This document shows positions 16,174 to 37,776 of a stretch of DNA of 64,000 nucleotides, one piece after another. The notes under the pieces are model-generated. The model saw nothing but the letters and a program-made list of their open reading frames with translations. It ran no database searches and was not told the DNA's origin. The DNA is from Moorella humiferrea (GTDB lineage Bacteria; Bacillota; DSM-521; Neomoorellales; Neomoorellaceae): assembly GCF_039233145.1 (NCBI RefSeq), contig NZ_CP136419.1, positions 1,648,001 through 1,712,000 of the forward strand, written 5' to 3'. The number at the start of each line of letters is the position of its first letter. The first letter of the stretch is position 1. The translations under genes and the position numbers were made by a program.

Positions 16174-16247
16174 TGATAGTTCTACCTCCTTATTGATTAT
16201 TGTTTAACTATTTCCAGAGGATAACGTTGAGCTATGTTTACATATAT

Positions 16248-17756: not shown

Positions 17757-17772
17757 GATATCGCCCCCTTCA

Positions 17773-18210: not shown

Positions 18211-18222
18211 CTTTCATTAAAT

Positions 18223-19938
18223 TTAATGAGCTTTAATGAGGTATTCATTTTTGATCCTGGAAGATACATCTTCAAAAAACACAATGGCCCTTTCTGGATT
18301 AAGCAACGCGAAAACCGGATAAGAAACTGTTTCTCTATTATTAAAATCTATAAGTTGGTTAATATAGAGTTTCAGTTGGTGCAAATTTTCAACAAGCATA
18401 GTATGGGCATGATTATAAAATAATTCATCTTTATTTCCAGGGTGACTAAGATAACGGGTTAAAATCGCGATTTTCCCCATAAGTTGAAAGCCCCTTATAT
18501 ACAAACCATAAATCTCAAACTCCCTTTTTAATTTTTCATAGATATTATTCACCAACCCCCTGTTTGCAAGAAACAATTGTTCCTTAATCTTTTCATATTG
18601 CTTCCAAGCTTCATCTTTTTCATCTAATATTTTTTGGACATTCTCTTTTGTGGGATTTAGAGCCTCAGCTTTAGTAATATCCCAATCGCGCAGGCTATTC
18701 TTTTCCTCAGCAAGCCAAAAAGCATGTTCTATACTTACTGGAAAAGTACTGCTGTCACTAAAAACACAATCGTTTATAAAAAGGGTCTTCCGGACAATGT
18801 CCCATGTTGATTCAAAAATCCCCATAATCCAATCCATACATATCTCTTCTTGTTCTGCAGACAGTTTTTCTTCTAGGAAACCTTGATCAATTAGCCAGCG
18901 ATAATATACGTCTTTGATCCTCGTGGAAATATTTTCGGAAAACATGGCTGCCGCATATAAATTAATTATGTTAGCCGTATCGAAACAAGAATGTCCGGGA
19001 AGACCCTCCCAATCAGTACGTATCAAAATACCACTGGCCCCTTTTTCCCGGCCGTAAGCCAGTCTTCGAGCGATATCCCGTACCATAATACTAGGGGCTA
19101 TGCCCCAGCCAAAATACTGGCCCATTACATCGTATTCAATCCATATTTTTTGCCTCTTTATTCGTCCTAACTGGGGGTTATTGGGAAATGTAGGATAAAA
19201 ATCATGTGGTGTATTTTTTAAAGAAAAGATTATGTCCTCCGGTAACCGTTCCATCGCCTCAGCTAAACTGGCATGAGACTGGGGATCAAATACAAAATCG
19301 CGAACAACAAGCTCTTTACCGGCATTTTTTGTAGGTTCGTAAATACTCATTATAAGGTTATAGTACCATTCGGAAGCGTTTAGATTTTGACATCTTTTAC
19401 ATGTACAGCGATTACTACTTATCGATAGCTTGCTTTCTCTGCTCCCAGGAGATGTAATAATACCATCTAACCCCGAAAGGTCAGCAAATAATTCTTCATA
19501 TTTAGTACGCAGGAATTCCCACCAAAACATTTCACTGCAGCATAGATAACCTTTTTTCCTTAATTCAGGATGAATTGTCTCAACAATATCCGGAAACCAA
19601 AGTTCTTTATTTTCCAGATATACCTTGATACCCCTTCCTTTTGCTTTACTAATAACCCATCGTAAAAAATCACGCCGTTGAAGGGGCATATAACGTCTTC
19701 GAGCGGAATATCTATACAACTCTTTAAAAATTATCCTGTAATTCTCATATAAGTTACCGGGTGTTTTAACACCGTAATATCTAGCTGGCCATACTACTTC
19801 ATCAATTATGTTATTAGCGTGTAAGACTAGAACGTTGAGATTGTTACGGCTCATAAAATTTAGGACTTCTTTTATGTGTTCTTGATCCCATACACGATCA
19901 TGGATTTCTAATGCGCGCACGTTATAATGAGCAACCAT
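18223..19938 (-). CDS. uncharacterised protein, TIM-barrel glycosidase-like (possibly alpha-glucuronidase related)
   Basis: I do not recognise this 571-residue protein with certainty. It has no signal peptide, so it should be cytosolic. The first 370 residues look like a TIM barrel: LVLHANNIIDE, IKVYLENKELWFPD, LDGIITSPGSRESK, ELVVRDFVF, IIFSLKNTPHDFYPTFPNNP, KIWIEYDVMGQYFGWG and GILIRTDWEG form strand-like acidic ends. The KNTPHDFYP...EYDVMGQYFGWG part recalls the GH67 alpha-glucuronidase barrel, which would suit a uronate operon. A CTCKRCQ pair suggests a small metal site. The C-terminal 200 residues are helical. It lies between the ROK regulator and tctB. Confidence 0.5.
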   Translation of the reverse strand: MVAHYNVRALEIHDRVWDQEHIKEVLNFMSRNNLNVLVLHANNIIDEVVWPARYYGVKTPGNLYENYRIIFKELYRYSARRRYMPLQRRDFLRWVISKAKGRGIKVYLENKELWFPDIVETIHPELRKKGYLCCSEMFWWEFLRTKYEELFADLSGLDGIITSPGSRESKLSISSNRCTCKRCQNLNASEWYYNLIMSIYEPTKNAGKELVVRDFVFDPQSHASLAEAMERLPEDIIFSLKNTPHDFYPTFPNNPQLGRIKRQKIWIEYDVMGQYFGWGIAPSIMVRDIARRLAYGREKGASGILIRTDWEGLPGHSCFDTANIINLYAAAMFSENISTRIKDVYYRWLIDQGFLEEKLSAEQEEICMDWIMGIFESTWDIVRKTLFINDCVFSDSSTFPVSIEHAFWLAEEKNSLRDWDITKAEALNPTKENVQKILDEKDEAWKQYEKIKEQLFLANRGLVNNIYEKLKREFEIYGLYIRGFQLMGKIAILTRYLSHPGNKDELFYNHAHTMLVENLHQLKLYINQLIDFNNRETVSYPVFALLNPERAIVFFEDVSSRIKNEYLIKAH

Positions 19939-19978: not shown

Positions 19979-21211
19979 CTAGCGGTTCAATATCTCCGCC
20001 CTTTCGACATCAAACAATTGCTTTATTGCCCCCAGGCAGGCACCGTAAAAAGCTGCGTCGCTACCGAGGTCGGATATCTCAATTCGTGTAGCCCGGGCTA
20101 TAGCCGGAAAGGCATGGCGGTAAACACTTTCTAAAAGTGACTCCATAAGGACCTCTTTGGCCCCTGCCAAAATACCACCAAGGTAAATGGCCTCTGGGTT
20201 ATAAAAATTTATGGCACATGCAATACCAATACCGATGTACCATCCTGCCTGCCTTATTAGCTGCCAGGCATAAGAACCAGCTTCACGGACGCAGGCCATT
20301 ATATCTTTAATATTTACTTCGCCTTTTTCGAGCCAAATTTGTTTCAAGGGGTCTTTATCTGGACAAAGATATAGTTCATTATTGGCTTTACGCACTATGG
20401 CCGGTACTGCATACAAACTTTCCAGACAACCCCGGTTGCCACAATTACATAGAGGTCCGTCTTCCATTATCACTAAATGTCCCATCTCGCCGGCATGACC
20501 GCTATAACCGTAAATAATCTCTCCATTCATAATGATTCCCGCACTGAAACCTTCGCCCAAATTAATATATAACAAATTATGGTTATTTTTCCCTCTACCT
20601 AAAGTATGTTCGGCCAATGCGGCAGCATTGGAGTTGTGTTCTACAAAAAGCGGGACATGGAAGTATTTCTCTAACGTTGCCTGTACCGGGATATTATGCC
20701 ATTGCTCACCAAGATTGGGAGAACGCTTAACAATCTTGGTACGGGTATCAAGAAGGCCCGGAACGGCAAAACCGGCTGCCAATATTTTACCTTCCGGAAT
20801 ACCTGTTGTTCTAATCAACTGCTCAATTTCTTTCGCCAAAGTGGCTAATCCTGTTTCAGGTTCAGTCATATCAATTTGAGCCTCATTTACTACAACCGGT
20901 TTTGCCTGCAAATCAACTATTCCCATGGTAGTTTTTTTACGCGTAATTTCTGCACCCACCACATATCCTGCTTCTGGATTAAACTGCAATTTAACCGGGC
21001 GGCGTCCACCGCTGGACTTGCCTAGACCCGTTTCTTGAATAAATCCCATTGCTACAAGTTCCCGTACGATACCACTAATCGCTGCAGGAGTAAGACCGGT
21101 AAGTTTGGCCAACTGCTGCCGAGAAACACTTTTATTTTCTCGAATAATATTTAAGACGTTGACGCGGTTCAATCTTTTTACGTACTCGAGATTGCCTGTC
21201 TCTCTGTTCAC
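19979..21211 (-). CDS. ROK-family transcriptional regulator (NagC/XylR type)
   Basis: A 410-residue ROK protein with an N-terminal helix-turn-helix (residues about 15-60: VLNIIRENKSVSRQQLAKLTGLTPAAISGIVRELV). A sugar-kinase-like fold follows, with FAVPGLLDTR, LFVEHNSNAAALAEHTLGRG, INLGEGFSAGIIMNGEIIYGYSGHAGEMGHL and the ROK zinc-site motif CNCGNRGCLESL. The helix-turn-helix marks it as a repressor rather than a kinase. It is the first gene of the AT-rich uronate operon and probably controls it, with a sugar or sugar acid as inducer. Two exact 11-bp tandem repeats lie 66-87 bases upstream of its start and may be its operator. Confidence 0.9.
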   Translation of the reverse strand: MNRETGNLEYVKRLNRVNVLNIIRENKSVSRQQLAKLTGLTPAAISGIVRELVAMGFIQETGLGKSSGGRRPVKLQFNPEAGYVVGAEITRKKTTMGIVDLQAKPVVVNEAQIDMTEPETGLATLAKEIEQLIRTTGIPEGKILAAGFAVPGLLDTRTKIVKRSPNLGEQWHNIPVQATLEKYFHVPLFVEHNSNAAALAEHTLGRGKNNHNLLYINLGEGFSAGIIMNGEIIYGYSGHAGEMGHLVIMEDGPLCNCGNRGCLESLYAVPAIVRKANNELYLCPDKDPLKQIWLEKGEVNIKDIMACVREAGSYAWQLIRQAGWYIGIGIACAINFYNPEAIYLGGILAGAKEVLMESLLESVYRHAFPAIARATRIEISDLGSDAAFYGACLGAIKQLFDVERAEILNR

Positions 21212-21422: not shown

Positions 21423-21454
21423 TAAAAAAGCGGAACTGGTAGCAGTTCCGCTTT
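21423..21454 (-). terminator. intrinsic terminator after the OYE-type gene
   Basis: AGCGGAACTG and CAGTTCCGCT pair around a CTAC loop and TTTTTT follows on the minus strand. It ends the LacI/Liv cluster and isolates it from the ROK-led operon. Confidence 0.85.
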
Positions 21455-21486: not shown

Positions 21487-22836
21487 TTATGAAGCAGAAG
21501 ATAATTCTTTATAAATCGTCATATATACCTCCCCATCCCTTACGACGCAGCCGGTCCTGCCGCCGTCGCGCATAATCTGGGTGCAGCGGCTGCAGGCAAT
21601 GCAGACCCGGCGCTCATCCAGCTGACCATTGGTGAGCAGGTCCCGGGCGAAATCGGGATAGGCAAAGGCAAGCCTGCCGGCACCGGCCAGGGTTGCCGCG
21701 CCGCGGGCGATATTGGCGGCCGCCGCGTGGCCGAAAAACTGCCGCAGCCAGCTGTAGCCGCTGCCGACCACGGCCAGTCCCGGTTCGGCTTCCTGTATCT
21801 CCCGGGTAATCTTAAAAAGCCGAGCGACGCTCTCCAGGGGATGCTCCGCCGGCAGGCCCGCCCCCTTGGGCGGAGTATCAAAGGGGCGGGTGACTTCCGG
21901 GTTTGTATAATACGGATTGCCGGCAGAAATGCTGACCAGTGTTACCCCCTTCTCCTTGAGGAGGCGCACAAGCCGGATGGGTTCGGAAAGGTCGGCGCGG
22001 GTATAATCTTCAGGATCAACGCCCCAGCCGTAGGGATAGGGATGGGCGTCGTAGGCGTTTAACCTAACGGCCAGGATAAAGTCATTGCCTGTTCTGGCCC
22101 GTACCTTTTCAATTGTTTCCAGGAGAAAACGCGTGCGGTTGTTAAAATCGCCGCCATACCTGCCTGCGCGGGTATGAGCGGCCAGCAGTTCCGACAAAAG
22201 GTAGCGGTGGCAGGACTTGATGTCTACCCCGTCAAAGCCGGCCTCTTGCGCCAGCAGGGCTGCTTCCACATATTTATCCTGCAGCTGTTCCAGTTCAGCG
22301 TCGGTAATTGCTTCCTGGTCAGGAGAAACCCCGGCCCTGGCGTCTAAATGAGGGTCATGGTAAGCGATTACCGGCTGCGGCTTGCCGTAAGGCTTGCTGT
22401 AGCGGCCGGAATGGGTTAACTGCAGGATGCACAGGGGACGGTGGCCGGCCCCCATGCTGTCTCCAGCTTCCCGCCGGGCCGTTTCCAGGAGCTCCTTAAA
22501 GGTATGGACGTTGCTGCGGTTGATATAAAGCTGCCGCGGGTTGGCACGGCCCTCTGGGACGACGGCGGTAGCCTCGAACCAGAGTAAACCCGCTCCCCCC
22601 CGGGCAAAGCGCCGGTAGCGGCGGAATGTCAGTTCGGACGGGCTGCCGTCTTCGCTGCCGTCACATCCTTCCATAGGATGGACGGCCAGGGAATTGGGCA
22701 ACTCCCGGCCGCCGATCTTTGCCCGTCGGGCCAGGGGACGCAAATCTTCGGTGAGTTCTATATCCAGATTTAGTTCGGCTATCTTTTCTTTTAACTGCAT
22801 AAGGTTTTTGAAGTTAAATTTACTGAAAGGAGCCAT
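21487..22836 (-). CDS. OYE-family flavin oxidoreductase with C-terminal Fe-S cysteines
   Basis: A 449-residue flavoenzyme of the NADH:flavin oxidoreductase / old yellow enzyme family. Motifs include the FMN barrel elements NSLAVHPMEGCDG, RYRRFARGGAGLLWFEATAV, LCILQLTHSGRYS, GFDGVDIKSCHRYLLSELL and LAVRLNAYD. The C-terminal cysteines (CIACSRCTQIM, then a Cys about 10 residues on) match the [4Fe-4S] site of 2,4-dienoyl-CoA-reductase-like members, but the third domain (FAD/NAD) is missing. The ATG at 22836 has AAGGAGATGG upstream. It is the last gene of the Liv cluster, 282 bp after the fumarate-reductase-like gene. Confidence 0.85.
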   Translation of the reverse strand: MAPFSKFNFKNLMQLKEKIAELNLDIELTEDLRPLARRAKIGGRELPNSLAVHPMEGCDGSEDGSPSELTFRRYRRFARGGAGLLWFEATAVVPEGRANPRQLYINRSNVHTFKELLETARREAGDSMGAGHRPLCILQLTHSGRYSKPYGKPQPVIAYHDPHLDARAGVSPDQEAITDAELEQLQDKYVEAALLAQEAGFDGVDIKSCHRYLLSELLAAHTRAGRYGGDFNNRTRFLLETIEKVRARTGNDFILAVRLNAYDAHPYPYGWGVDPEDYTRADLSEPIRLVRLLKEKGVTLVSISAGNPYYTNPEVTRPFDTPPKGAGLPAEHPLESVARLFKITREIQEAEPGLAVVGSGYSWLRQFFGHAAAANIARGAATLAGAGRLAFAYPDFARDLLTNGQLDERRVCIACSRCTQIMRDGGRTGCVVRDGEVYMTIYKELSSAS

Positions 22837-23118
22837 AAAGCCATCTCCTTATTATGAATCAGGTTCTTCTTGTTTCGTTTGGATGGAACAGGATCGTGTT
22901 GCGACCGCCATTGATAATGAAGCGCTTCGCTCAGGTGATCCAAACAAAGACAATTGGAGAGGCGGTTAAATATGACTTAAGTAGTTAACCGGACCATCTC
23001 CATACCCACTCCGATCCCACTCCGTCTTATGAACTATAGTTTAGTAAAGTATAATTTAATGGCACATCCTGGTAATTATGAATCCCTGCCGGCAGGCAAA
23101 AGCAGGGTAAATTTTTTC
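22837..23118 (-). other. 282-bp intergenic region with inverted repeats upstream of the OYE-type gene
   Basis: The region holds a 12-bp perfect palindrome CCTGCCGGCAGG (23085-23096). It also has -10-like sequences on the minus strand (TATACT, TATAGT, about 23030-23055). GTTTGGAT and ATCCAAAC arms about 60 bases apart (around 22874-22946) could fold a leader RNA. I see no coding frame. A separate promoter for the OYE-type gene is likely. Confidence 0.4.
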
Positions 23119-24942
23119 CTAAGGCCGCACTGGCTCGCGCACTGTCAACACCATTTGCCCGTCCTTACGGCTGATGACCAGGTAGCGCTGCCATTCCGGG
23201 TCCCGGCGGGATACCGGGGTAACATCGGTTGCTTTAAGAAAACGCAGATGGGGGCCGCGGCTCTCATCCCGCTGCAGGGCCGTCCGCAGGATCATTTCCG
23301 CCACCAGCAGCATGTTTTCGTTCTCCAGGGCGTAGGCCAGGCCGTGCTCGTCGACCCGCTGCGCCATTTTCTGCAGCGCGGATAGCTTTTCCAGGCCCAG
23401 CCGCAGCCCCTCCTCTGTCCTCACCACGCTGGCCGCCCGGTTCATCAGATCCTGCAACCTCCGCCGCAACTCCCCGGCCGGTATGTCGCCTTTATCAAGC
23501 ATATTCTGCATCCGGGCAAGAAATCCCTCAATCTCGGCCGCCGGCACTTCTACAGGGGGTACGCTGACGGCTTCTCTGGCAGCCTCTTCCCCGGCCAGGC
23601 GCCCGAAGACCTGGCCGTCCAGCAGGGCGTTGCCCCCCGGCCTGTTGGCCCCGTGCTGGCCGCCGGCCACCTCGCCGGCGGCATACAGGCCGGCAACAGC
23701 CGTCCTGCCGGCCTGACTGATTTTCACCCCGCCCTGGAAGTGCTGGATGCAGGGCGCCACCTCAATCATGACGCCGGCTTCCAGGGCCAGCCCTCGCTCC
23801 TTTAGCCAGGCGATACTTTCGGGATTAATTTCCTTCAAGCGCTGTAAAGGGCTGGCCAGGCGCCTTTCCGTCCCCAGGTCGACCGTAATTTCGCTATAAT
23901 AACGCCGGCGATTTTCTTCCACCAGTTCGTCCCATTGGAATCCGGCCGGGTTCCGGCTGTAGTCCAGGTAGACCCTACGCCCGGCAGCGATTTCCTGGTA
24001 GACGGCCACATCAATGATGTGGGTGGGATGCTCGTAGGTAACCGGCCAGCTTGCTCCCTTGCGGAATAGCAGGTTCATTACCACCCTGGGCGGGGTACCC
24101 GGCGGGAAATAGCGTCCCAGGAATTCTTCGCCCCGGTCGTTAACCAGGCGGGGCAGGGCGCGCAGCATGCTTCCCGAACAATTTAATTTTGTCTTCAGGG
24201 AGGCCAGGCCGATCTGGATAAATTCCATGTTGACAAGTTCGGCGCCGGCGGCGTAGGCCAGGGCGTAGCCGTCACCGGTCATGCCGCCGGGAAAAACATT
24301 GGTCCGGTAAACCTGGCCCGCACCGCCGGTGGCCAGGATGACCGTCCTTGCGGAGATAACTTTCAGGGCGGCAGTCGGGTCATGGTGCTGGCGGGTATCC
24401 AGGGCCAGGGCGCCGGTTACCCTTCCCTGGCTGGTAATTAACCGGGCGACCATGGTAAAATTCAGGACCTGTACCGGCAACTGGCGCAAACGCTCCACCA
24501 GGGCTTCTTCAATATGAATAGCCGTCTTGGGGCCAGTATAGCAGGCCCGGGGGAAGTCGGAGCCATCGGTTACAAACTGGCGGGCCTTTCCCCCTTCTTT
24601 CACGAAAGGAACACCCAGGGCATCAAGGTAGTTAAATGCAGCTTCAGCTTCCCGGGCTAACGTTACGGCCAGATCCCAGTCGGAGACCAGGCCGCCGAGG
24701 CGGTAAATATCTTCGGCATGGTAGCGCCACGCGTCTGGCCCCCCCGGCGGGGTATGGGGTAAGGTTGCGTGGAAGGCCATGCGATCGGAGCAGGCCGTGG
24801 CCGTCACCCCGCTCCTGCCCAGCCTCCCCTTTGTGGCCAGGACTACCTTTAAATCAGGGTTATACTCCTGGGCGGCGATGGCCGCCCGCAGGGCTGCCCC
24901 GCCGCCGCCGATAACCAGGACATCGCAATTATAATGTTCCAT
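23119..24942 (-). CDS. fumarate reductase/succinate dehydrogenase-type flavoprotein
   Basis: A 607-residue FAD protein. Residues 7-22 hold GGGGAALRAAIAA, followed by ATKGRLGRSGVTATACSD, GLVSDWDLAVTLAREA, ILATGGAGQVYRTN, GDGYALAYAAGAELVNMEFIQIG and GLYAAGEVAGGQHGANRPGGNALLDGQVFGRLAG. A C-terminal helical domain follows (about residues 440-600). The plan is that of FrdA, SdhA and AprA proteins, but no iron-sulfur or membrane subunit gene accompanies it. It may therefore be a soluble reductase or oxidase for a cluster-specific acid. It follows the alcohol dehydrogenase gene by 32 bases. Confidence 0.85.
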   Translation of the reverse strand: MEHYNCDVLVIGGGGAALRAAIAAQEYNPDLKVVLATKGRLGRSGVTATACSDRMAFHATLPHTPPGGPDAWRYHAEDIYRLGGLVSDWDLAVTLAREAEAAFNYLDALGVPFVKEGGKARQFVTDGSDFPRACYTGPKTAIHIEEALVERLRQLPVQVLNFTMVARLITSQGRVTGALALDTRQHHDPTAALKVISARTVILATGGAGQVYRTNVFPGGMTGDGYALAYAAGAELVNMEFIQIGLASLKTKLNCSGSMLRALPRLVNDRGEEFLGRYFPPGTPPRVVMNLLFRKGASWPVTYEHPTHIIDVAVYQEIAAGRRVYLDYSRNPAGFQWDELVEENRRRYYSEITVDLGTERRLASPLQRLKEINPESIAWLKERGLALEAGVMIEVAPCIQHFQGGVKISQAGRTAVAGLYAAGEVAGGQHGANRPGGNALLDGQVFGRLAGEEAAREAVSVPPVEVPAAEIEGFLARMQNMLDKGDIPAGELRRRLQDLMNRAASVVRTEEGLRLGLEKLSALQKMAQRVDEHGLAYALENENMLLVAEMILRTALQRDESRGPHLRFLKATDVTPVSRRDPEWQRYLVISRKDGQMVLTVREPVRP

Positions 24943-24974
24943 CTTATTCCTGCTCCTAACTACAAGGTCAATAT

Positions 24975-26063
24975 TTATGGCATAAGTACTGCTTTCACGG
25001 CTTCTTTACAGGCCATCACCTCTAATGCTTCATTAACCCGGGCCAGCGGGAAACGGTGGGTAATCATCCGGGCAAAAAGTTCAGGCTGCGCCAGGATCAT
25101 GGCCATGGCCCGGTAAACATGGCGGGTGTCGCTGACCCACACCCCCTGTAAACGGATATTGCGCCGGGCCAGGTGCTGGTAACCGTCAAAGGCGAAGGTC
25201 CCTCCCGGCTGGCCAAAACCCATGCTAAGGACCGCCCCCCCAGGTCGCACCAGGGTAATGGCTTCCAGCAAAGCTGCAGCATTGCCCGCAGCCTCGACGA
25301 CCAGATCGGCGCCGCGGCCGTGGGTCAGGTCCAGGATTACCTGCCGCCGCTCCTCATCCTGAACTTCATGGCGGTCCAGGGTAACAGTGGCCCCGAATTG
25401 CTGTCCCATTTCCAGGCGTGTTTTAGAGCCACCGCTCACGATGACTGTAGTTGCTCCATAGGCCCGGGCAAAGGCTACGGCAAACAGGCCTAAAGGCCCG
25501 GGTCCGATAACAACCACCGTGTCGCCAGGTTCGGGTCGCACCAGGTCGAAGCCGTGGGCCGCTGTAGCCCCTGAACAGGAGGCCGCCACCAGCACCGCGG
25601 GGTCAACCCCCACCGGCACCCGGAATATGTCCGCGCCGGGTTGCAGAATGATATATTCGGCATAACATCCGTTTAAATACGGCGGTTCGGTAGTGGCAAT
25701 ATTAATCCCCTGGACGACCCGGTTGGGGCATAAAGACGGTTCCCGCAACACGGCGCAGTAGTAGCAGTGGCCGCAGGAAACACCCCGGTTCCAGAAAATA
25801 AGGTCGCCCTCCTTCAGTTCTTCACCTTCTACCGTTAGCTTTTTTCCTTTAATGGCGGCCACCTCGCCAACGCCTTCGTGGCCCAAAATCATAGGTAACT
25901 TGACGCGCGGGTCCTCTCCCTGCCAGATGTGCAGGTCAGAGCCGCAGATACCGGCGGCTTTTATTTTTACCAGCACCTGCCCCGGCTCCAGGTTGGGAAT
26001 GTTTATTTCCCGTGCCGTCAGAGGTTCATTAAACGCTTCTAAAACATAGGCTTGAGCTTTCAT
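24975..26063 (-). CDS. zinc-dependent alcohol/polyol dehydrogenase
   Basis: A medium-chain dehydrogenase of 362 residues. The catalytic zinc site has CGSDLHIW and GHEGVGEV. The structural zinc site has four cysteines in CGHCYYCAVLREPSLC. The NAD(P) fold has VIGPGPLGLFAVAFA. Members oxidise secondary alcohols, polyols or sugar acids. The ATG at 26063 overlaps the TGA of the upstream gene (ATGA), so translation is coupled to the UroD-type gene. A longer reading from 26156 would cover 90 bases of that gene and is not needed. Confidence 0.9.
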   Translation of the reverse strand: MKAQAYVLEAFNEPLTAREINIPNLEPGQVLVKIKAAGICGSDLHIWQGEDPRVKLPMILGHEGVGEVAAIKGKKLTVEGEELKEGDLIFWNRGVSCGHCYYCAVLREPSLCPNRVVQGINIATTEPPYLNGCYAEYIILQPGADIFRVPVGVDPAVLVAASCSGATAAHGFDLVRPEPGDTVVVIGPGPLGLFAVAFARAYGATTVIVSGGSKTRLEMGQQFGATVTLDRHEVQDEERRQVILDLTHGRGADLVVEAAGNAAALLEAITLVRPGGAVLSMGFGQPGGTFAFDGYQHLARRNIRLQGVWVSDTRHVYRAMAMILAQPELFARMITHRFPLARVNEALEVMACKEAVKAVLMP

Positions 26064-27073
26064 GCTATTCCCCCGTGTTCTGCCATGTATGCTGCCAGTA
26101 CTTGTTTCAGGTAGAGCACGTTTTCCGGCGGGGCTCCGTAGGGGACAACGCCGCATCCCAGGATAAACCCGCCGCCAGGTGCTCCTTTAGCCAGGACTTC
26201 CCTGGCCTGAGCAGCAATCAGCTCTTTGGGACCTGTTTCCACTACCCGTGCCTGGATGCTGCCCCGCAGGACGATACCTGCCGCCCGGGCCTTTGCTTTA
26301 TAGGCCACCAGGTCGGTGCCGTAGTCGGCCATGAGAATGGAGGAACCTGTCTGCACCAGCCAGTCGACAATGGGGGTAGTGTTGCCGCCGCTAATTAAAC
26401 CAACGCTGGCGGCCCCGGCGGCCTTTAAGGAAGCAATTAACCCTTTTTCCCGGGGAAAAGCAAAGCGCTGGTAGAGTTCCGGCGAAAGCAAAGGCGGCGT
26501 GATCCAGGATTCGTTAATCGATATACTTAGCCCCCGTTTAATCATGGCCGTGCCTACTGCCAGGCCTACTTCGGCGGCAAAATCCAGCAGGGCGCCGGCA
26601 AAGTCCGGTGCGGTCAACAAATCTAATATAAAGTTTTCATAACCCCGGAGCAGGGCGGCCAGGGTAAATGGTCCCACCATAGCGGCGCCTACGGCCACCT
26701 CACTGCCGATAACCTCCCTCACCCGGCTGGCGGCGTCCAGGAGTAAAGGCAGGCGACCGTCATGTTCCGGATCGGGTACCCTCAGGCGGGCCAGGTCGGC
26801 TGGGCAGGAAACGATGGGGCCGGCAATGGCCGGAATGGCTTCGTCGTCGAAATACTGCACCGGGCAGCCCAGGGCTTCGGCTTCGACGTTATAGATATCT
26901 ATGCCGACCGTAATCAGGTCATGGCCGTACAGCTCATAAGCCCTGAGCTGTCCTTTCACGATCAGTTCCGCGCTCCTGGCCATTTTTGAAGGCGTTACCC
27001 CGATTAAGGCGGCGGCATGTTCATACACCACAGGGACGAAAGGAATTTTATCCCTGTTAAAAAATCCACCCAC
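26060..27073 (-). CDS. uroporphyrinogen decarboxylase / MtaA-CmuA family protein
   Basis: A 337-residue protein of the URO-D barrel family in its MtaA/CmuA-like branch: FFNRDKIPFVPVVYEHAAALIG, YELYGHDLITVGIDIYNVEAEALGCPVQYFDD, GPFTLAALLRGYENFILDL, INESWITPPLLSPELYQRFAFP, GLISGGNTTPIVDWLVQTG and a C-terminal FILGCGVVPYGAPPENV. Related proteins move methyl groups between corrinoid proteins and thiols. No corrinoid protein or partner methyltransferase is encoded nearby, so a methyl-transfer role is unproven. A zinc-type Cys is present in LGCGVVP. It lies between livF and the alcohol dehydrogenase gene. Confidence 0.8.
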   Translation of the reverse strand: MGGFFNRDKIPFVPVVYEHAAALIGVTPSKMARSAELIVKGQLRAYELYGHDLITVGIDIYNVEAEALGCPVQYFDDEAIPAIAGPIVSCPADLARLRVPDPEHDGRLPLLLDAASRVREVIGSEVAVGAAMVGPFTLAALLRGYENFILDLLTAPDFAGALLDFAAEVGLAVGTAMIKRGLSISINESWITPPLLSPELYQRFAFPREKGLIASLKAAGAASVGLISGGNTTPIVDWLVQTGSSILMADYGTDLVAYKAKARAAGIVLRGSIQARVVETGPKELIAAQAREVLAKGAPGGGFILGCGVVPYGAPPENVLYLKQVLAAYMAEHGGIA

Positions 27074-27088
27074 AATTACTCCCTTCTT

Positions 27089-27823
27089 TCATCTGCTCCT
27101 CTTGCTGTCCACCCGGGGCTCTACCCGCTCGCCCAGATAAGCATTGCGAATACGGGGATCGGCCAGCAATTCCCTGCCCGGCCCGTTCATGGTAATCCTG
27201 CCGTTTTCTAAAACATAGGCGTGATCGCATAGGGCCAGGGCTTTGCGGGCATTTTGCTCCACCAGCAGGACGGTAACCCCTTCCTCCCGGATACGGCTGA
27301 TAATATTAAAAATGGTGTTGACCACCAGTGGGGCCAGGCCCAGGGAAGGTTCATCAAAAAGCATAACTTTGGGGTTGGACATCAAGCCCCGCCCTACGGC
27401 CAGCATCTGCTGTTCGCCGCCGCTTAAAGTGCCGGCGTACTGGTTTTGGCGTTCTTTGAGGACCGGAAACAAAGTAAATATATGTTCTAAATTCCTGGCC
27501 GCTTCCCGGCCGTTAAGCCGGTAACCGCCCATCAGCAGGTTTTCCTTCACCGTCAGGCCGGCGAAGACTTTTCTGCCTTCCGGCACCTGGACTATCCCCC
27601 GCCTGACCACCAGGTGGGGCTGCCGCGGCAACTCTTCCCCCATAAAAAGGATCGAACCCCGGCGCGGTCGCACCAGACCGGCAATGGTATTTAAAAGGGT
27701 GCTTTTGCCGGCGCCGTTGGCCCCGATTATACTGACAATCTGACCCTGCTTAACTTCAAGGTTGACCTCGTGCAGGGCCATAATCGCCCCGTAGCCGGCG
27801 CTCAAGTTTTTAATCGTCAACAT
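27089..27823 (-). CDS. livF: branched-chain-type ABC transporter ATP-binding protein LivF
   Basis: A 244-residue ABC ATPase: Walker A GANGAGKSTL (about residues 35-44), Q-loop VPEGRKVFAGLTVKENLLMG (LivF type), signature LSGGEQQMLAVGRGLM, Walker B VMLFDEPSLGLAP and a switch histidine region. It pairs with LivG to power an importer of the branched-chain amino acid / HAAT type. The ATG at 27823 is one base after the livG stop; longer frames run back into livG. It is the last transporter gene, followed by the UroD-type enzyme. Confidence 0.94.
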   Translation of the reverse strand: MLTIKNLSAGYGAIMALHEVNLEVKQGQIVSIIGANGAGKSTLLNTIAGLVRPRRGSILFMGEELPRQPHLVVRRGIVQVPEGRKVFAGLTVKENLLMGGYRLNGREAARNLEHIFTLFPVLKERQNQYAGTLSGGEQQMLAVGRGLMSNPKVMLFDEPSLGLAPLVVNTIFNIISRIREEGVTVLLVEQNARKALALCDHAYVLENGRITMNGPGRELLADPRIRNAYLGERVEPRVDSKRSR

Positions 27824-27824
27824 C

Positions 27825-28589
27825 TCATTCCTCGTCCCCCAGGTAGGCCTTGATGACCTCTTCATTGCATTGAATGGCAGCCGGTGGCCCGCTGGCCAGG
27901 GTCCTACCGAAATTCTGGACATAAATGTACTGGCAGAGCTGCATTACTACCTCCATCCGGTGTTCAATCAGGAGGATGGCCAGACCTAAATCCCTATTAA
28001 GCCTGGCGATGAGCTCAATCAGATCGATAACTTCTTTGGGATTCAATCCTGCCGCTGGCTCATCCAACAGCAATACTCTGGGACCGGTCGCCAGGGCCCG
28101 GGCAATCTCCAGGCGACGCTGGAGGCCGTAAGGTAGGTTCTCCGGCCGCCAGTCTTTGTAAGCAATTAAATCCACCACTTCCAGGTAGTGTAAGGCTTTT
28201 TCACGGGCTTCCCGCTCGGCACGAAATTTCCCCGGCAGCGACAGGAGGGCGGAAAAAATATTATACTTCGTCAGGGGGTCGATAGCTGTCATGACGTTTT
28301 CCGCCACGCTCAGGCCGCGGAAGAGGCGGATGTTTTGAAAAGTGCGGCCCAGCCCGGCTTCGGCTATTCTATGCTGTTCCAGATTGGTAATATCCCGGCC
28401 CGCCAGCAGCACCCGGCCGCTATCGGCCTTATAAACGCCGGAGATAACATTAAAAATCGTCGTCTTGCCGGCCCCGTTGGGCCCGATAATGCCTACGATA
28501 CCCTTTTCCGGCAGGTCGAGGTAAAAATCCGCAACCGCCTGGACGCCGCCGAACCTTTTGTTAAGCCCTTTGACTTCTAAAATATTCAC
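27825..28589 (-). CDS. livG: branched-chain-type ABC transporter ATP-binding protein LivG
   Basis: A 254-residue ABC ATPase with Walker A GPNGAGKTTIFNVISGVYKAD, the LivG-type insert GRTFQNIRLFRGLSVAENVM, the signature-like LPYGLQRRLEIARALATGP, Walker B VLLLDEPAAGLNP and the D-loop/His part LLIEHRMEVVM. The signature is YGLQR rather than LSGGQ, which is normal in LivG. The start is a GTG at 28589 that overlaps the TGA of livM (GTGA). Confidence 0.94.
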   Translation of the reverse strand: MNILEVKGLNKRFGGVQAVADFYLDLPEKGIVGIIGPNGAGKTTIFNVISGVYKADSGRVLLAGRDITNLEQHRIAEAGLGRTFQNIRLFRGLSVAENVMTAIDPLTKYNIFSALLSLPGKFRAEREAREKALHYLEVVDLIAYKDWRPENLPYGLQRRLEIARALATGPRVLLLDEPAAGLNPKEVIDLIELIARLNRDLGLAILLIEHRMEVVMQLCQYIYVQNFGRTLASGPPAAIQCNEEVIKAYLGDEE

Positions 28590-29455
28590 GACCCCTCACC
28601 CTCCCTTATCCTGTTTCCCCGGCGCCGTAGCAGGGACAGGAGGGAGATTTCATACTCACCGAATAAACCGGTAGGTTTAAAGTTCAGGATTAATAAGACA
28701 ATCACGCAGTAGGCGACGATGCGCCACTCGGCTGCGGCCCGTAAGATTTCCGGCAAACCTGTAAGCAGGGCGCTGGCGACGACGGCCCCGGTCAGGCTGT
28801 TGATGCCGCCGAAAAACACCATAATAATCCATTCGGCCGATTTGGTCCAGCCGAACATCACCGGCTCGACATAGGTCGTATAAAATCCATAAAGGACGCC
28901 GGCATAGGTTGTAATAGCCGCCGATAAAAGGAAGGCCACCATTTTTACCTGGTTGACATTGATGCCCATGGACCTGGCCGCCAGTTCATCACTTCGTAAG
29001 GCCAGGCACTGGCGGCCGTAGCGCGAACATTTAAAACCCCAGACCAGGAACAGGCAGATCACGGCTGAAGTTACTGCTAAGAGAAGCGTCGTCTGCTTGG
29101 GAATGCCGGAGAGTCCCATGGCGCCGCCGGTAATATTTACTGACTGGTTGAGGAGGGCGGCTATGGCTTCGCCAAAGCCGAAGGTTACCAGGGAGATGTA
29201 GTCCCGGCGTAACCTGATGGTTGGCAAGCCAACTATCACGGCTGCTATCAGGCCAACAACAACGGCTCCGCCTGCCGCCAAAGGAAAGGAAAAATTATAT
29301 TTCACAGCCATCAACCCGGCCACATAGGCGCCAATACCCATAAAAGCCCCCTGGCCCAAAGAAAAGAGGCCGGTTAACCCTGTAAGAATGAAGACGCCGG
29401 TCACGGCTACTACATTGATAGCTGTAAAGGTTAGCACTGAAGCTAAAAGTTCCAT
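28586..29455 (-). CDS. livM: branched-chain-type ABC transporter permease LivM
   Basis: A 289-residue permease with about eight helices and the LivM signature GLTGLFSLGQGAFMGIGAYVAG near the N-terminus. The central loop contains LRSDELAARSMGINVNQVK. I place the start at ATG 29455, seven bases after AGGGG; an ATG at 29461 is too close to that site. It forms the transmembrane pore with LivH. It overlaps livG by four bases and follows livH closely. Confidence 0.92.
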   Translation of the reverse strand: MELLASVLTFTAINVVAVTGVFILTGLTGLFSLGQGAFMGIGAYVAGLMAVKYNFSFPLAAGGAVVVGLIAAVIVGLPTIRLRRDYISLVTFGFGEAIAALLNQSVNITGGAMGLSGIPKQTTLLLAVTSAVICLFLVWGFKCSRYGRQCLALRSDELAARSMGINVNQVKMVAFLLSAAITTYAGVLYGFYTTYVEPVMFGWTKSAEWIIMVFFGGINSLTGAVVASALLTGLPEILRAAAEWRIVAYCVIVLLILNFKPTGLFGEYEISLLSLLRRRGNRIREGEGS

Positions 29456-29468
29456 GGCCATACCCCTA

Positions 29469-30341
29469 TCAAGCTTTTTCCTGGATATGGCTGCCAGCAA
29501 TACCCCGCGGCCGCACCAGGAGAAAAAGTAGCATAATGACGAAGATGAACACGGGTGATATACCCGAACCGACCAGCCGGATAAGTAAAATCTCAATTAT
29601 TCCTAAAAGAAAGGCGCCGATAACCGCCCCGGGCAGACTGCCCAGGCCACCAATCACTGATGCGATAAAACCCTTGACCACCAATTGGCCGAGTTGGGGA
29701 TAGAGGGTATAACTGATGCCTAAAAAGACGCCGCTGATTCCGCCGAGGAAACCCGCCAGGAAAAAAGCCAGCTGGATAATTCTGAGGACATTGATACCCA
29801 TCAAACCGGAAGTATCGACGTCATAGGAAACGGAACGCAGGGCGGTTCCCAGCTTGGTCCTGTAAATCAGCACCGCCAGGATTATCAAGGCTAAGGATGA
29901 GATGCAGAACATGATAAGTTCCGGGACACCCAGCAGTAGCCGACCCACTTTCACTGTGGCCACAGGGAAGAAATTAGGATAAGCATAAAAGTTGGTGCTG
30001 AAAAAGATAGTCATCAGGTTCTCCAGCAGCATGCCCAGGGTGATAGAAGATACGAAATAGTAGATCACAGGACCTTTATTATTGCGAATACGGCGGAAGG
30101 CAACTAATTCTGCTATAATCCCCAGCATCCCCCCTGCCAGGGAAGCGATAAGCAGGGTCCAGAGCAGCGATGTATGCCAGAACCTTGTGGCCAGGAAACC
30201 TACGTAGGCTGTTACGGTCATGAAACCACCGTGGGCGAAATTGCTGAACTTCAATATATTGAATATTATGGCAAACCCCACGGCGATCAAAGCATATACC
30301 GCACCCAGGGAAATGCCGTTAATTATCAATTGTGCCGTCAT
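29469..30341 (-). CDS. livH: branched-chain-type ABC transporter permease LivH
   Basis: A 290-residue permease with the LivH N-terminus INGISLGAVYALIAVGFAIIFNILKFSNFAHGGFMTV, several helices, a GINVLRIIQLAFFLAGFLGGISG loop and the C-terminal GGLGSLPGAVIGAFLLGIIE. It pairs with LivM in the membrane. A GC-rich hairpin separates it from livK, which probably lowers its expression relative to the binding protein. Confidence 0.94.
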   Translation of the reverse strand: MTAQLIINGISLGAVYALIAVGFAIIFNILKFSNFAHGGFMTVTAYVGFLATRFWHTSLLWTLLIASLAGGMLGIIAELVAFRRIRNNKGPVIYYFVSSITLGMLLENLMTIFFSTNFYAYPNFFPVATVKVGRLLLGVPELIMFCISSLALIILAVLIYRTKLGTALRSVSYDVDTSGLMGINVLRIIQLAFFLAGFLGGISGVFLGISYTLYPQLGQLVVKGFIASVIGGLGSLPGAVIGAFLLGIIEILLIRLVGSGISPVFIFVIMLLFLLVRPRGIAGSHIQEKA

Positions 30342-30369
30342 AATTTGCCGCTCCTTTAAGATCCTTTAC

Positions 30370-30416
30370 GGGATGGCCGGGACGGCTCCGCAGACCTATA
30401 CCCGTCCCGGCATCCC
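30370..30416 (-). terminator. attenuator-like hairpin between livK and livH
   Basis: Arms GGGATGGCCGGGACGG and CCGTCCCGGCATCCC (30370-30385 and 30402-30416) form a stem of about 15 bp with one bulge. No T run follows on the minus strand. Such stems behind binding-protein genes often protect mRNA ends or cause partial termination. Confidence 0.6.
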
Positions 30417-30422
30417 TCCATA

Positions 30423-31631
30423 TTATTGCTGCTGCTGTTCCTTGGTAATATAACGCTCTTTGGTGATATACTGGCCCTTTTCAATTTTAATCATCACCAT
30501 AGAAAGGCCATAGGGACGATGGGTATTGGGAGATATGCTGATATTGCCCGTTGTTCCCTTGACGTCCTTTGTCTGTTCCATGGCGTCCCGTACCTTGACC
30601 GGGTCAGGTGCACCGGCCCGCTTAATGGCGTCGGCAATGACCAGGATGCTGTCATAGCCGATGAAAACCTTATTCAGAGGTTCGTCATTATAGGCTGTCT
30701 TGTAAGCGGCCGCCACCTCCTTGATCTGCGGATCTTCCGCGGCGATATTGTTGGGGAAATAAATGTCATTGGCGGCCTCGCCGGCCAGGCTGGCAAAGGG
30801 CGGGGCAAAATCCAGGCCGCCGGTTATGGGGACGTTGATGCCTATCTGCCGTGCCTGCTGTACTGCCAGGACGTCTTCCTGGATATAGTTGGGGATATAA
30901 ATAGTTTCGGCCCCGGCCGCTTGAATTGCCGCCAGCTGGGTTTTGAAATCTTTATCACCCGTCTTGTACATTTGTTCGGATACTATCTGCCCGCCATGGC
31001 TCTTAATGTAGTCAATAAAAGGTTTGGCAAGAGATACAGAATATGCATTGGCCTGGTTGTACAGAACCCCTACTTTTTTCAAATTCAGTTTTTCCAAGGT
31101 ATAACTGGCGACTATCTCGGCCTGTTGGACGCTACTAGGCTGGATCAAGAAATTATAGGCCCATGGTTTACCGTCGTTTTTCGTTGTCGCCCTCTCGTCA
31201 ATAAAACTTCCGAGAATAGCCACTTTAGCGTTTTCGGCAATAGGTGCCAGGGCAATTCCAATATTGCTGACCGGCGGGCCGATTATGGCCACGGCTTTAT
31301 CCTGGGTAGCCAGGCGGTTGTAGGCGTTGATTGCCTCCTGGACGTCATTTTTGGTATCATAGGTAACAAGCTTCAGTTTTTTACCATTGATGCCGCCCTC
31401 TTTATTGATCTTGTCGATGGCCAGCTGGGCACCATTGGTAACCATCTTGCCCCAGACCGAGGTGGTAGAACTTAAATCCTGCAGGTTGCCGATGACAATT
31501 ACCTCACTGGAACTTGCCTGGTTTTCTCCGCCGCCTGCCTGGCTCTTGCCCTTGGCAGAAGTGCCCTGGCCGCAGGCAGTCACCAAGAAAACCAGGACAA
31601 GAACCATGAAAGACAAGACTAACTTTTTCAT
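30423..31631 (-). CDS. livK: branched-chain-type ABC transporter substrate-binding lipoprotein LivK
   Basis: A 402-residue lipoprotein. The signal peptide has lipobox LVTACGQG. The mature part is a periplasmic-binding-protein type I fold: VIVIGNLQDLSSTTSVWGKMVTNGAQLAIDKINKEGGINGKKLKLV, AVAIIGPPVSNIGIALAPIAE, VGVLYNQANAYSVSLAKPF. Members bind amino acids, amides or aromatic acids. The binding pocket cannot be read reliably here, so the ligand is unknown. The ATG at 31631 has GGAGGT nine bases upstream. It follows the lacI-type gene by 144 bp. Confidence 0.92.
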   Translation of the reverse strand: MKKLVLSFMVLVLVFLVTACGQGTSAKGKSQAGGGENQASSSEVIVIGNLQDLSSTTSVWGKMVTNGAQLAIDKINKEGGINGKKLKLVTYDTKNDVQEAINAYNRLATQDKAVAIIGPPVSNIGIALAPIAENAKVAILGSFIDERATTKNDGKPWAYNFLIQPSSVQQAEIVASYTLEKLNLKKVGVLYNQANAYSVSLAKPFIDYIKSHGGQIVSEQMYKTGDKDFKTQLAAIQAAGAETIYIPNYIQEDVLAVQQARQIGINVPITGGLDFAPPFASLAGEAANDIYFPNNIAAEDPQIKEVAAAYKTAYNDEPLNKVFIGYDSILVIADAIKRAGAPDPVKVRDAMEQTKDVKGTTGNISISPNTHRPYGLSMVMIKIEKGQYITKERYITKEQQQQ

Positions 31632-31775
31632 GCCTTCAGTACCTCCATTTTTTTCTTTTTGCTTTTGGTTTTCATGCATTATCCGAGAAAATACCTTCAG
31701 ATTGGCTGTCTCCCTACTTACACCCCCTTTCAAAGCCACACCTATACTCCAGCATTCACAGAGAGGATGGCTGTG

Positions 31776-32804
31776 TTATTTGCCAGTAGCAATAACCTGG
31801 CCGGCCAGTCCATAATCTACCGAAGATCGCACCAGTAATTGGGCTGGTAGCCTTTCAACCACAGGTTTATTTTTCCGCTTGCTGTTAATCAACTTGATCA
31901 ACCGCTCCGCCGCCCTCTGGCCAACCTCGTAAAAGGGCTGGGCCATCGTGGTTAGGGGAGGGTCCATTAGTTCTGACATGTCCAGGTTGTCATAACCCAT
32001 GACGGCAATATCGTCCGGTACCCGCAGACCCTTTGCCTTTAGAGCTTTGATAACCCCCAGGGCCTTGGGATCGCTGGCGGCAAATACGGCATCCGGCCGC
32101 TGGCCCCGCTCCAGGATAGTGAGAATGGCCCGGTAACCATCTTCCCAGTCCCGAGTACCGTGAACAACCAGGTCCTCGTTATAGGCTATACCGGCCTCCG
32201 CAAGGGCCGCCTGGTATCCGGCGAAACGCTGGCGGTAAAGGTCCAGCTCTAAAGTGCCGTTGACAAAAGCGATACGCCGGTAACCGCGCTCGATGAGGAA
32301 TTTAGTGGCTTCATAGCCGCCCCGGAAGTTGTCGACTATGACGGCATCCACCTTGTCTTCCAGGTGGCGGATCATGAGTACTACCGGAAAACCCTGCTCT
32401 TTGAGTTCCAAAATGTGGGTGCTGGCGGCCGTGGCTGTGGAAAAGATCAGGCCGTCGACCAGCCTCTTGCGCAGGTTGTCGACATAGGCCTTCTCTGTTT
32501 CTATATCTTCGTCGGTATTGCACAGGATAACGGTATAGCCATACTTTTTGGCCACATCGGTTATCCCTTTGATGGCCGCCGGGAAAACCAAATTCCGTAC
32601 ATTGGGAATGATCAGGCCGATGGTCCTGGAGCGCCCTTCTTTCAAACCCTTGGCCAGGGCATTAGGCTGGTAGTTAAGCTCACGTACGGCGCGCATGACT
32701 TTTTCTTTCGTTTCCGGGCTGACCGCCACCCGGCCGCTTAAGGCCCGGGAAACGGTGCTGGGCGAAACCCCGGCCCTCTCGGCAACTTCTTTGATATTGA
32801 CCAT
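31776..32804 (-). CDS. LacI-family transcriptional regulator
   Basis: A 342-residue LacI protein. The helix-turn-helix is at residues 2-25 (NIKEVAERAGVSPSTVSRALSGR) with the hinge ELNYQPNALAKGLK. The ligand-binding fold contains IGLIIPNVRNLVFPAAIKGI, VDAVIVDNFRGGYEATKFLIERGYRRIAFVNG and AVMGYDNLDMSELMDPPLTTMAQP. It should repress the downstream livKHMGF and enzyme cluster until a sugar-like ligand binds. The ATG at 32804 is preceded by AAAGGAAG. A sigma-H-like promoter and 12-bp repeats of ATTGTGCAAT lie upstream, suggesting autoregulation. Confidence 0.92.
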   Translation of the reverse strand: MVNIKEVAERAGVSPSTVSRALSGRVAVSPETKEKVMRAVRELNYQPNALAKGLKEGRSRTIGLIIPNVRNLVFPAAIKGITDVAKKYGYTVILCNTDEDIETEKAYVDNLRKRLVDGLIFSTATAASTHILELKEQGFPVVLMIRHLEDKVDAVIVDNFRGGYEATKFLIERGYRRIAFVNGTLELDLYRQRFAGYQAALAEAGIAYNEDLVVHGTRDWEDGYRAILTILERGQRPDAVFAASDPKALGVIKALKAKGLRVPDDIAVMGYDNLDMSELMDPPLTTMAQPFYEVGQRAAERLIKLINSKRKNKPVVERLPAQLLVRSSVDYGLAGQVIATGK

Positions 32805-32830: not shown

Positions 32831-32852
32831 TTGTGCAATCCATTGTGCAATC
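32831..32852. promoter_or_regulatory. tandem TTGTGCAATC repeats, candidate LacI-family operator
   Basis: TTGTGCAATC occurs at 32831-32840 and 32843-32852, a 12-bp period; a weaker third copy continues toward the gene. Each unit is nearly palindromic (ATTG..CAAT). The site lies between the promoter element and the ATG of the LacI-type gene. Confidence 0.5.
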
Positions 32853-32867
32853 GTTTGTAGATTCTAT

Positions 32868-36035: not shown

Positions 36036-37058
36036 TCACCGCTGCACCCTGCCGGAGGCGTCGCCGCGCATGAGGGTCATTACTTCCTCCTTGGTAACAT
36101 GGTTGAAGTCGCCGGGGATGGTATGTTTCAGACAGGAGGCGGCCACGGCAAATTCCAGGGCTTCCCCCGGACCGAAGCCTTCAGTGAGGGCGTATATTAA
36201 ACCGCCCGCAAAGGCGTCGCCACCGCCGACACGATCGACGATATGGATCTGATAGCGCCGCGAGCGATAAAATTCCCGGCCGTCATAGAGAAGGGCCGAC
36301 CAGCCGTTGTCGAAGGCGGAGAAGCTCTCCCTTAGGGTTATGGCGACCTTCTGGAGGTTGAAGCGAGTTAACAGCTCCCGGGCCACCTGCCGGTAACCTT
36401 CTTCGTTGATTTCTCCTTTGGTAACGTCCGAGGCTGCCGCTTTTATGCCGAAAACCTTTTCCGCGTCTTCTTCGTTGCCGATGGCAATATCGACATAATC
36501 CATTAATTGCGTCATGGTTTCCCGAGCCTTCTCCGGCGCCCACAGGTTCTTGCGGTAATTGAGATCGCAGCTCACGGTGAGGCCCATCTCTTTCGCCGTC
36601 CGGGCGGCTTCCAGGGTGACGGCGGCCACATTTTCTCCTAAAGCGGGGGTAATCCCGGTAAAGTGGAACCAGGAAGCACCGGAAAAAATCCCCGCCCAGT
36701 CAAATTCGCCCGGCTGCACCCCGGCAATGCTGGCGTATTTACGGTCATAGACCACCTTTGAAGGTCGCTGGGAGGCACCGGTTTCCAGGAAATAGATCCC
36801 CAAGCGCTCGCCGCCCCGGAGGATATGGGTGGTGTCCACTCCATAACGGCGCAGGTGGTTGACGGCCGCCTGACCCAGGGGATTGGCCGGAACTTTGGTG
36901 ACGAAAACGGCTTCCGCACCGTAATTGGCCAGGGAGCAGGCGACGTTAGCCTCCCCCCCGCCGTAAGTAACGTCAAAGGAATCCGCCTGGACGATGCGCT
37001 GATAACCCGGTGTCGACAGGCGCAGCATAATCTCGCCGAAGGTAACTACTTTTGCCAC
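36036..37058 (-). CDS. kdgK: 2-keto-3-deoxygluconate kinase (PfkB family)
   Basis: A 340-residue PfkB-type sugar kinase. It has the N-terminal VTFGEIMLRLSTPGYQRI, YGGGEANVACSLANYGAEAVFVTKV, and the C-terminal PfkB signature RVGGGDAFAGGLIYAL with the catalytic Asp. KdgK phosphorylates 2-keto-3-deoxy-D-gluconate to KDPG. It follows kdgA by 21 bases, and a terminator follows it. Together with the altronate enzymes at 9.7-12.7 kb it completes the lower galacturonate route. Confidence 0.93.
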   Translation of the reverse strand: MAKVVTFGEIMLRLSTPGYQRIVQADSFDVTYGGGEANVACSLANYGAEAVFVTKVPANPLGQAAVNHLRRYGVDTTHILRGGERLGIYFLETGASQRPSKVVYDRKYASIAGVQPGEFDWAGIFSGASWFHFTGITPALGENVAAVTLEAARTAKEMGLTVSCDLNYRKNLWAPEKARETMTQLMDYVDIAIGNEEDAEKVFGIKAAASDVTKGEINEEGYRQVARELLTRFNLQKVAITLRESFSAFDNGWSALLYDGREFYRSRRYQIHIVDRVGGGDAFAGGLIYALTEGFGPGEALEFAVAASCLKHTIPGDFNHVTKEEVMTLMRGDASGRVQR

Positions 37059-37724: not shown

Positions 37725-37776
37725 ACCGACCCACCTCCGGTTCATATTATGAAACAATGGTTTACAATAATAAATA

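Follow-up and report, generated by a model that had tools for sequence, protein, structure and literature searches.

A probable LacI-regulated catabolic module with OYE- and fumarate reductase-type flavoproteins inside a hexuronate locus of Moorella humiferrea

The ten-gene block and its operator

The stretch of 64,000 nucleotides analyzed here (the window; M. humiferrea contig NZ_CP136419.1, positions 1,648,001 to 1,712,000, in a single-contig genome of 2.67 Mb) contains a block of ten genes that encode a LacI-family regulator, a Liv-type ABC importer and four enzymes: a UroD/MtaA-fold protein, an alcohol dehydrogenase (ADH), a fumarate reductase-type flavoprotein (FRD) and an FMN- and iron-sulfur-containing protein of the Old Yellow Enzyme (OYE) type. 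An annotation made earlier from the letters of this DNA (the original prediction) had recognized ten genes in one orientation with overlapping starts, and this description is borne out. All ten open reading frames are intact and lie on the minus strand in the order described, their families were assigned by Pfam matches, and overlaps are present between the LivM and LivG genes (GTGA, 28586-28589) and between the UroD stop and the ADH start (ATGA, 26060-26063). In the direction of transcription, the features of the block are:

32848..32857, minus strand: LacI operator core CAAACGATTG, about 44-53 bp 5' of the LacI start
31776..32804, minus strand: LacI-family regulator (PF00356 + PF13377; start 32804)
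30423..31631, minus strand: LivK-type lipoprotein binding protein (PF13458, E 6e-63; likely start 31631)
29469..30341, minus strand: LivH-type permease (PF02653)
28586..29596, minus strand: LivM-type permease (PF02653; true start probably about 29455-29461)
27825..28589, minus strand: LivG-type ATPase (PF00005 + PF12399)
27089..27823, minus strand: LivF-type ATPase (family match; likely start 27823)
26060..27073, minus strand: UroD/MtaA-fold protein (PF01208, E 3e-50)
24975..26063, minus strand: Zn-dependent alcohol dehydrogenase of the MDR family, ADH (PF08240 + PF00107; likely start ATG 26063)
23119..24942, minus strand: FRD-type flavoprotein, 607 aa (PF00890, FAD_binding_2, + PF02910, Succ_DH_flav_C)
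21487..22836, minus strand: OYE-type FMN / 4Fe-4S protein, 449 aa (PF00724)
21427..21454, minus strand: rho-independent terminator 3' of OYE (12-bp stem, loop of 4, T run; -18.6 kcal/mol, z -5.86)

With two ATPases, two permeases and one binding protein assigned by Pfam, the predicted importer is complete. The FRD and OYE genes are loosely spaced (282 bp, 22837-23118), and the corresponding distance is 26 bp and 175 bp in two other genomes of the genus, G237 and G098, respectively. The terminator, situated 33 bp past the end of the OYE gene, is strong and stands where the original prediction had placed one. The promoter element that was likewise claimed did not hold up, since the 10 sigma-70-like sites present in the region compare with 8.8 expected and are thus at chance level.

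Five loci of the genus share the operator core upstream of the LacI gene in identical form, and it also occurs upstream of OYE or LacI genes in Peptococcaceae CEB3, Faecalispora, Marasmitruncus and Caldicoprobacter, among other genera. When 260 bp at OYE or LacI were tested with a looser core, a site was present in 13 of the 27 LacI-containing loci, against a background of about 0.007 per 260 bp. At the operon studied here, the candidate LacI target site reads ACAAACGATTGCACAA. The motif has the generic shape of LacI-family sites; it thus speaks for direct control by the LacI protein encoded in the locus and is no unique signature. The block is a conserved, probably LacI-regulated catabolic module with ties to hexuronate/KDG metabolism.

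Properties of the four enzymes

The OYE protein matches PF00724 with 110 bits (cut-off 27; E 2e-31). Its cysteine motif C412-x2-C415-x2-C418-x11-C430 and the residues E56, K207, H210 and Y212 are invariant among 16 homologues. With the OYEs of the 2,4-dienoyl-CoA reductase, BaiCD and trimethylamine dehydrogenase type it shares the TIM-barrel FMN domain and the CxxCxxC-x11-C motif, but it differs from them at the active-site positions E56 and K207, which are unlike those of the wider family, and in the absence of the C-terminal FAD/NAD(P)H half, as the polypeptide ends after the Fe-S motif. Its scores are 79 bits against a cut-off of 825 for BaiCD, and 107 against 793 for the mycofactocin OYE.

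Twenty-one OYE homologues are longer (710-962 aa), and the extra part was found to be a PreT/GltD-like NAD(P)H-FAD half in the two proteins tested by Pfam. Of the 49 short OYE genes, 38 have an FRD gene no more than 6 kb away, compared with 2 of the 16 long ones having 3 kb or more of flanking sequence (Fisher 6e-6, kinship ignored), a linkage that fits an FRD giving or taking electrons for the short OYEs. Three fused OYEs do have an FRD nearby, which weakens the view that the FRD does no more than replace the missing reductase half; the FRD therefore probably has a substrate role of its own. Long OYEs (902-962 aa) are found in the Verrucomicrobia loci L059, L077, L085 and L091, where a UroD-type gene with an HCCG motif is nearby.

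The FRD shares its domains and the H355/R390-type carboxylate site with FrdA and SdhA: the carboxylate-binding residues H355 and R390 of FrdA are kept as H401 and R434, and R287 is aligned to R261. By contrast, His44, the site of covalent FAD attachment in FrdA, is G45, and the three dicarboxylate residues H232, T244 and E245 are replaced. The FAD is thus predicted to be non-covalently bound, and the simplest reading of the altered site would be that the substrate has one carboxylate group and is otherwise polar. We reject the assignment of this protein as a respiratory fumarate reductase on account of the lost covalent-FAD histidine and dicarboxylate residues. No Fe-S or membrane subunit (FrdB, FrdC) was found among the neighbours of the FRD, in agreement with the original prediction that electron-transfer subunits are missing.

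As the OYE is devoid of its NAD(P)H-FAD half and the FRD of an Fe-S subunit, a pairing of the two is possible, and their sequences suggest that they may work as a pair. A related arrangement is known from the PreA-PreT dihydropyrimidine dehydrogenase, in which an FMN/Fe-S barrel likewise depends on a distinct FAD protein as partner; some OYEs carry a fused PreT/GltD-like half, as described above, and a PreA-like protein replaces the OYE in related loci. The difference is that the partner proposed here is of the FRD type, which is devoid of a site for NAD(P)H.

FRDs of the 607-aa type (at least 51% identity) are also encoded by genomes that lack this kind of OYE. In the genus g131 and in the genomes G229 and G032, the neighbour of the FRD is a DHODH-like, PreA-like FMN/Fe-S protein in the OYE's stead, followed in g131 and G229 by an ADH and a Gfo/Idh protein; g131 yielded no OYE of the present type. 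The FRD-ADH-DHODH loci of g131 variously hold PL11 rhamnogalacturonan lyase, PcRGLX, GH88, GH106, GH95 and GH2 genes.

The ADH lies far under the cut-off of every NCBIfam equivalog; scyllo-inosose 3-dehydrogenase (IolM) is among the better matches of this protein and its counterparts.

The AlphaFold model of the UroD-like protein (pLDDT 92.7) is closest to 4ay7 (Z 39.1, root-mean-square deviation 1.9 over 317 residues), so that it has the same fold as the methyltransferases MtaA, MtbA and CmuA. Where these enzymes carry HxCG, the operon protein has ISGGNTT (ISGG[ND]TT in close homologues): of the three zinc ligands, the histidine is replaced by isoleucine and the first cysteine by glycine, and only the last cysteine is kept. 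The corrinoid partner that the original prediction had reported missing is indeed absent, as no B12-binding gene is present among the ten operon genes. The lost zinc ligands and the absent corrinoid protein speak against the demethylation that had been considered, and with the zinc motif gone we do not accept the operon protein as a corrinoid methyltransferase. A methyl step is possible for some UroD-fold members near the module and unproven for that of the operon. The six best matches of this protein in our phylum sample are all from genomes with the FRD or OYE, and tblastn against plasmids returned nothing beyond weak UroD relatives. At positions 8329-13935 of locus L048 (Peptococcaceae CEB3), a corrinoid protein, two more UroD-type proteins and an RbsABC-type importer are encoded upstream of OYE, LacI, UroD and ADH genes.

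Conservation of the module and its hexuronate setting

In the phylum sample of 299 genomes, the OYE type was found in 19, and a relative of this type is encoded in a genome collection by at least 568 candidate stretches, which span Bacillota, Chloroflexota, Verrucomicrobiota, Acidobacteriota, Planctomycetota and others. Neighbours were counted for 70 OYE loci with same-strand neighbours. The most frequent partners are FRD (39 loci), SDR (32), ADH (21) and LacI (20), and rarer ones are Eda (12), IlvD (9), KdgK (7), an IolO/psicose-epimerase-like protein (5) and UroD (4). Clustering by neighbours yields two common arrangements. In one, OYE is accompanied by an SDR of the PRK12745 type and an FRD of 669 aa; in the other, its partners are ADH and the 607-aa FRD type found here. 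Pairwise distances of the partners correlate with those of OYE (Mantel r of 0.85 for SDR, 0.74 for ADH and 0.45 for FRD). The ADH, FRD and OYE genes remain linked across unrelated genera, and the comparison with other genomes that the original prediction had proposed as a test did not refute it. The importer beside the module varies (Liv, TRAP, TctA, GltS, MFS or sugar ABC) and is mostly of the carboxylate type, several of these importers having been identified by eye from their sequences.

An altronate/galactarate dehydratase domain or UxaC is present in 19 of the 26 module genomes, defined by the presence of the OYE or the 607-aa FRD, versus 79 of the 273 others (Fisher 1.3e-5, kinship ignored); counted by genus, the figure is 11 of 17. 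UxaB-like and UxaA-like genes lie directly upstream of the LacI gene in G086. Downstream of the ADH-FRD-OYE-Gfo genes of L037, three related proteins of 660-720 aa are encoded (7165-13746); the first has no Pfam match, and they possibly represent a new carbohydrate-active family.

The M. humiferrea block itself sits within a hexuronate locus, with uxa-type genes downstream of OYE and the genes for 2-keto-3-deoxygluconate (KDG) kinase and KDPG aldolase upstream. Past OYE, the order is ROK, a 571-aa protein, the Tct transporter, an FAD protein of family PF12831, the IolB/KduI-type isomerase, UxaB, the UxaA-type protein and an IclR regulator. The main features of these flanks are:

37080..37757, minus strand: KDPG aldolase, Eda (PRK06552, 297 bits, cut-off 238; lower pathway)
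36036..37058, minus strand: KDG kinase, KdgK (lower pathway)
19979..21211, minus strand: ROK-family regulator of the next operon (family named from sequence)
18223..19938, minus strand: 571-aa protein, uronidase-like fold (GH138/GH67; Foldseek on a low-confidence AlphaFold model)
15148..17789, minus strand: TctC and TctA of a tripartite carboxylate transporter
12755..13561, minus strand: IolB/KduI-family isomerase, candidate hexuronate isomerase (PF04962; TIGR04378, 223 bits, cut-off 205)
11184..12707, minus strand: tagaturonate reductase, UxaB (NF002969, 658 bits, cut-off 359)
9680..11170, minus strand: altronate-dehydratase-type protein, UxaA (PF20629 + PF04295 + SAF; under the galactarate dehydratase cut-off, assigned by domain and context)

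Since the block lies inside this hexuronate/KDG locus, the lower pathway can be named. The original prediction had stated that the enzymes belong to no nameable pathway; this stands for the flavoenzyme set, which appears undescribed, but it missed the hexuronate/KDG setting. Literature searches found neither a known pathway holding all of the genes nor a paper describing the set, and no reaction assigned to the OYE family.

UxaC is lacking, as no PF02614 match was found in the whole genome (the control was positive in 7 of 14 genomes), and its place may therefore be taken by the IolB/KduI-type isomerase. Escherichia coli KduI has been reported to convert galacturonate and glucuronate (PMC3578941). 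The 571-aa protein has no Pfam match over cut-off. Its AlphaFold model (pLDDT 63.6) gave Foldseek matches to 6hze (6e-10; GH138, rhamnogalacturonan II) and 1gqi (4e-8; GH67 alpha-glucuronidase), VIA-align puts GH20 enzymes first, and the model provides a hint at a uronidase-like protein. A homologue (32-34% identical) lies beside TctABC and ROK genes in G098, and the corresponding locus of G098 and of G237 holds a ROK homologue, with 60-63% identity. The G+C content is 38% at 16001-20000, compared with about 52-58% at the OYE block, a drop that suggests a recent acquisition of the Tct/571-aa part. Between the LacI and KDG kinase genes (33093-35961), an FAH-family hydrolase and a long membrane pyrophosphatase-like protein are encoded. 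A second UxaA-UxaB copy, 89-94% identical, is present on the same contig at 1536000-1555999 (L156), where the gene content is reminiscent of the Thermotoga inositol set (IolG/M/N/O-like proteins named by eye, a sugar ABC importer and another UroD-type protein). The tRNA scan of the window found none, and group II intron pieces were the sole matches of the Rfam scan, with two D1-D4 matches at 7367-7663 (minus strand) adjoining a pilus-type RcpC/CpaB gene.

Six of the 11 genomes of the genus carry the OYE. In G098 the cluster is 98-99% identical and is adjoined by mannonate-dehydratase-like and fructuronate-reductase-like genes (named by eye); G237 has most of the cluster at 77-91%, with UxaA-UxaB-IolB-like genes upstream of LacI. 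The OYE gene of G299 contains three stops and most of the cluster is lost, and G302 retains LacI, ADH, FRD and fragments; KdgK-Eda are at the same locus in both of these genomes. The cluster is accessory and decays in some strains, and its lower arm is of the altronate type in one strain and of the mannonate type in another.

Proposed role and competing explanations

We consider it moderately probable that the operon serves the LacI-controlled import of a sugar acid, its redox remodelling by ADH, FRD and OYE, and the entry of the product into KDG catabolism. The substrate appears to be an unusual plant-derived sugar acid on which two paired flavin enzymes act; the carried-in acid of the original prediction remains the likely substrate, and carboxylate importers dominate beside the module. 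The Liv importer would bring in the sugar acid, most likely a hexuronic acid derivative, and the ADH would interconvert a secondary alcohol and a ketone. FRD and OYE would each carry out one oxidation-reduction at a C=C (or adjacent C-H) bond, probably as an electron-sharing pair in which the 4Fe-4S cluster of OYE takes the part of FrdB, and the FAD of the FRD that of the absent OYE reductase half. A hexuronate, ketohexonate or hexonate would result and could then be converted to KDG by UxaB and UxaA (UxuB and UxuA in a sister strain), and KDG would be processed by KdgK and Eda to pyruvate and glyceraldehyde-3-phosphate. Among the components of the hexuronate isomerase pathway (UxaC-UxaB-UxaA, UxuB-UxuA, KdgK, Eda), UxaB, the UxaA-type protein, KdgK and Eda are encoded on either side of the operon and probably receive its product, whereas UxaC is absent here, and OYE, FRD, UroD and the Liv importer are foreign to that pathway.

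Several observations weigh against this interpretation. Importers for sugars, not acids, are found at several module loci; both an altronate-type dehydratase and UxaC are missing from 7 of the 26 module genomes, and related genomes are non-independent samples. A tagaturonate reductase was not matched in G098 despite its nearly identical cluster, and the exit point is therefore not fixed. FRD and ADH occur without OYE in G298, as does the cluster of G162. In M. sulfitireducens (L030/L047), FRD and OYE share an operon with UbiD, a molybdopterin enzyme, a second FRD, an Fe-S (ferredoxin-type) protein and a TAXI-type TRAP importer, a gene content that hints at non-sugar substrates; a truncated mannonate dehydratase-like gene follows the OYE.

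An unlikely alternative, which we nevertheless regard as the most serious one, is that the substrate is a uronic acid bearing a methyl group, for example 4-O-methyl-glucuronate of xylan or arabinogalactan origin, that is demethylated by a UroD-type methyltransferase or through oxidation and elimination by ADH, FRD and OYE, and is then passed on as hexuronate to KDG. The host is a heat-loving acetogen of the Moorella type, and such a host can use methyl groups. UroD-fold proteins recur with the module and keep the HxCG zinc motif in three cases in G086 and one in L048, a corrinoid protein gene lies directly upstream of the OYE gene in L048, and xylan, rhamnogalacturonan or uronidase-like genes are present in related loci. 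Against this stand the loss of two zinc ligands in the operon UroD and its close orthologues, the lack of a corrinoid gene in the operon, and the rarity of this UroD type (4 of the 70 module loci).

Somewhat less probable still is a cyclitol or an L-hexonate as substrate, which the ADH would oxidize to a keto-acid or a diketo-ring; an epimerase-type step and the action of the flavoproteins on an enone would follow, with entry at tagaturonate or fructuronate. The IolM matches of the ADH and the IolO/psicose-3-epimerase-like genes at 5 of the 70 loci are consistent with such a route, and the sequence from L-gluconate via tagaturonate to altronate is proven elsewhere (PMC12632266). The ADH scores argue against it, an inositol-type set is found at a separate locus of the same genome, and neither the Thermotoga inositol route nor the L-gluconate route needs two flavoproteins. 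Finally, FRD and OYE could be ene-reductases that dispose of electrons or detoxify unsaturated or aromatic acids, their position in a uronate locus being incidental. Reduction of activated C=C bonds is common among OYE and Frd-type flavoproteins, and the two proteins are encoded with UbiD and a molybdopterin enzyme in M. sulfitireducens, but we deem this reading improbable given the recurrent linkage to KDG-route genes and LacI across genera and the genome-wide association with hexuronate genes.

Returning to the remodelling of a sugar acid on its way to KDG, we tentatively entertain the broader possibility that the module represents a widespread, undescribed KDG entry route in which an FRD and an exchangeable FMN/Fe-S barrel, either an OYE or a PreA-like protein, make up a two-component, electron-sharing flavin system that operates together with an ADH or SDR. 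For Caldicellulosiruptor, a published reconstruction describes UxaC without the conventional later galacturonate steps and proposes the uncharacterised 'hem' and 'uxa' clusters as likely tagaturonate users (PMC8579813). All four g131 genomes likewise possess UxaC and have no altronate dehydratase domain, and they hold FRD-ADH-DHODH-Gfo genes in a pectin locus. The likeness to Caldicellulosiruptor lies in this pathway gap.

Uronic acids and their derivatives make up a large share of plant biomass and of the glycans available in the gut. The gene set discussed here comprises few genes, includes a dedicated LacI regulator and can be found in cultured strains. If the broader reading above is true, the module would constitute a third way for unusual uronic acids to reach KDG, beside UxaABC/UxuAB and KduID, and the FRD and OYE would form a complex of a new kind.

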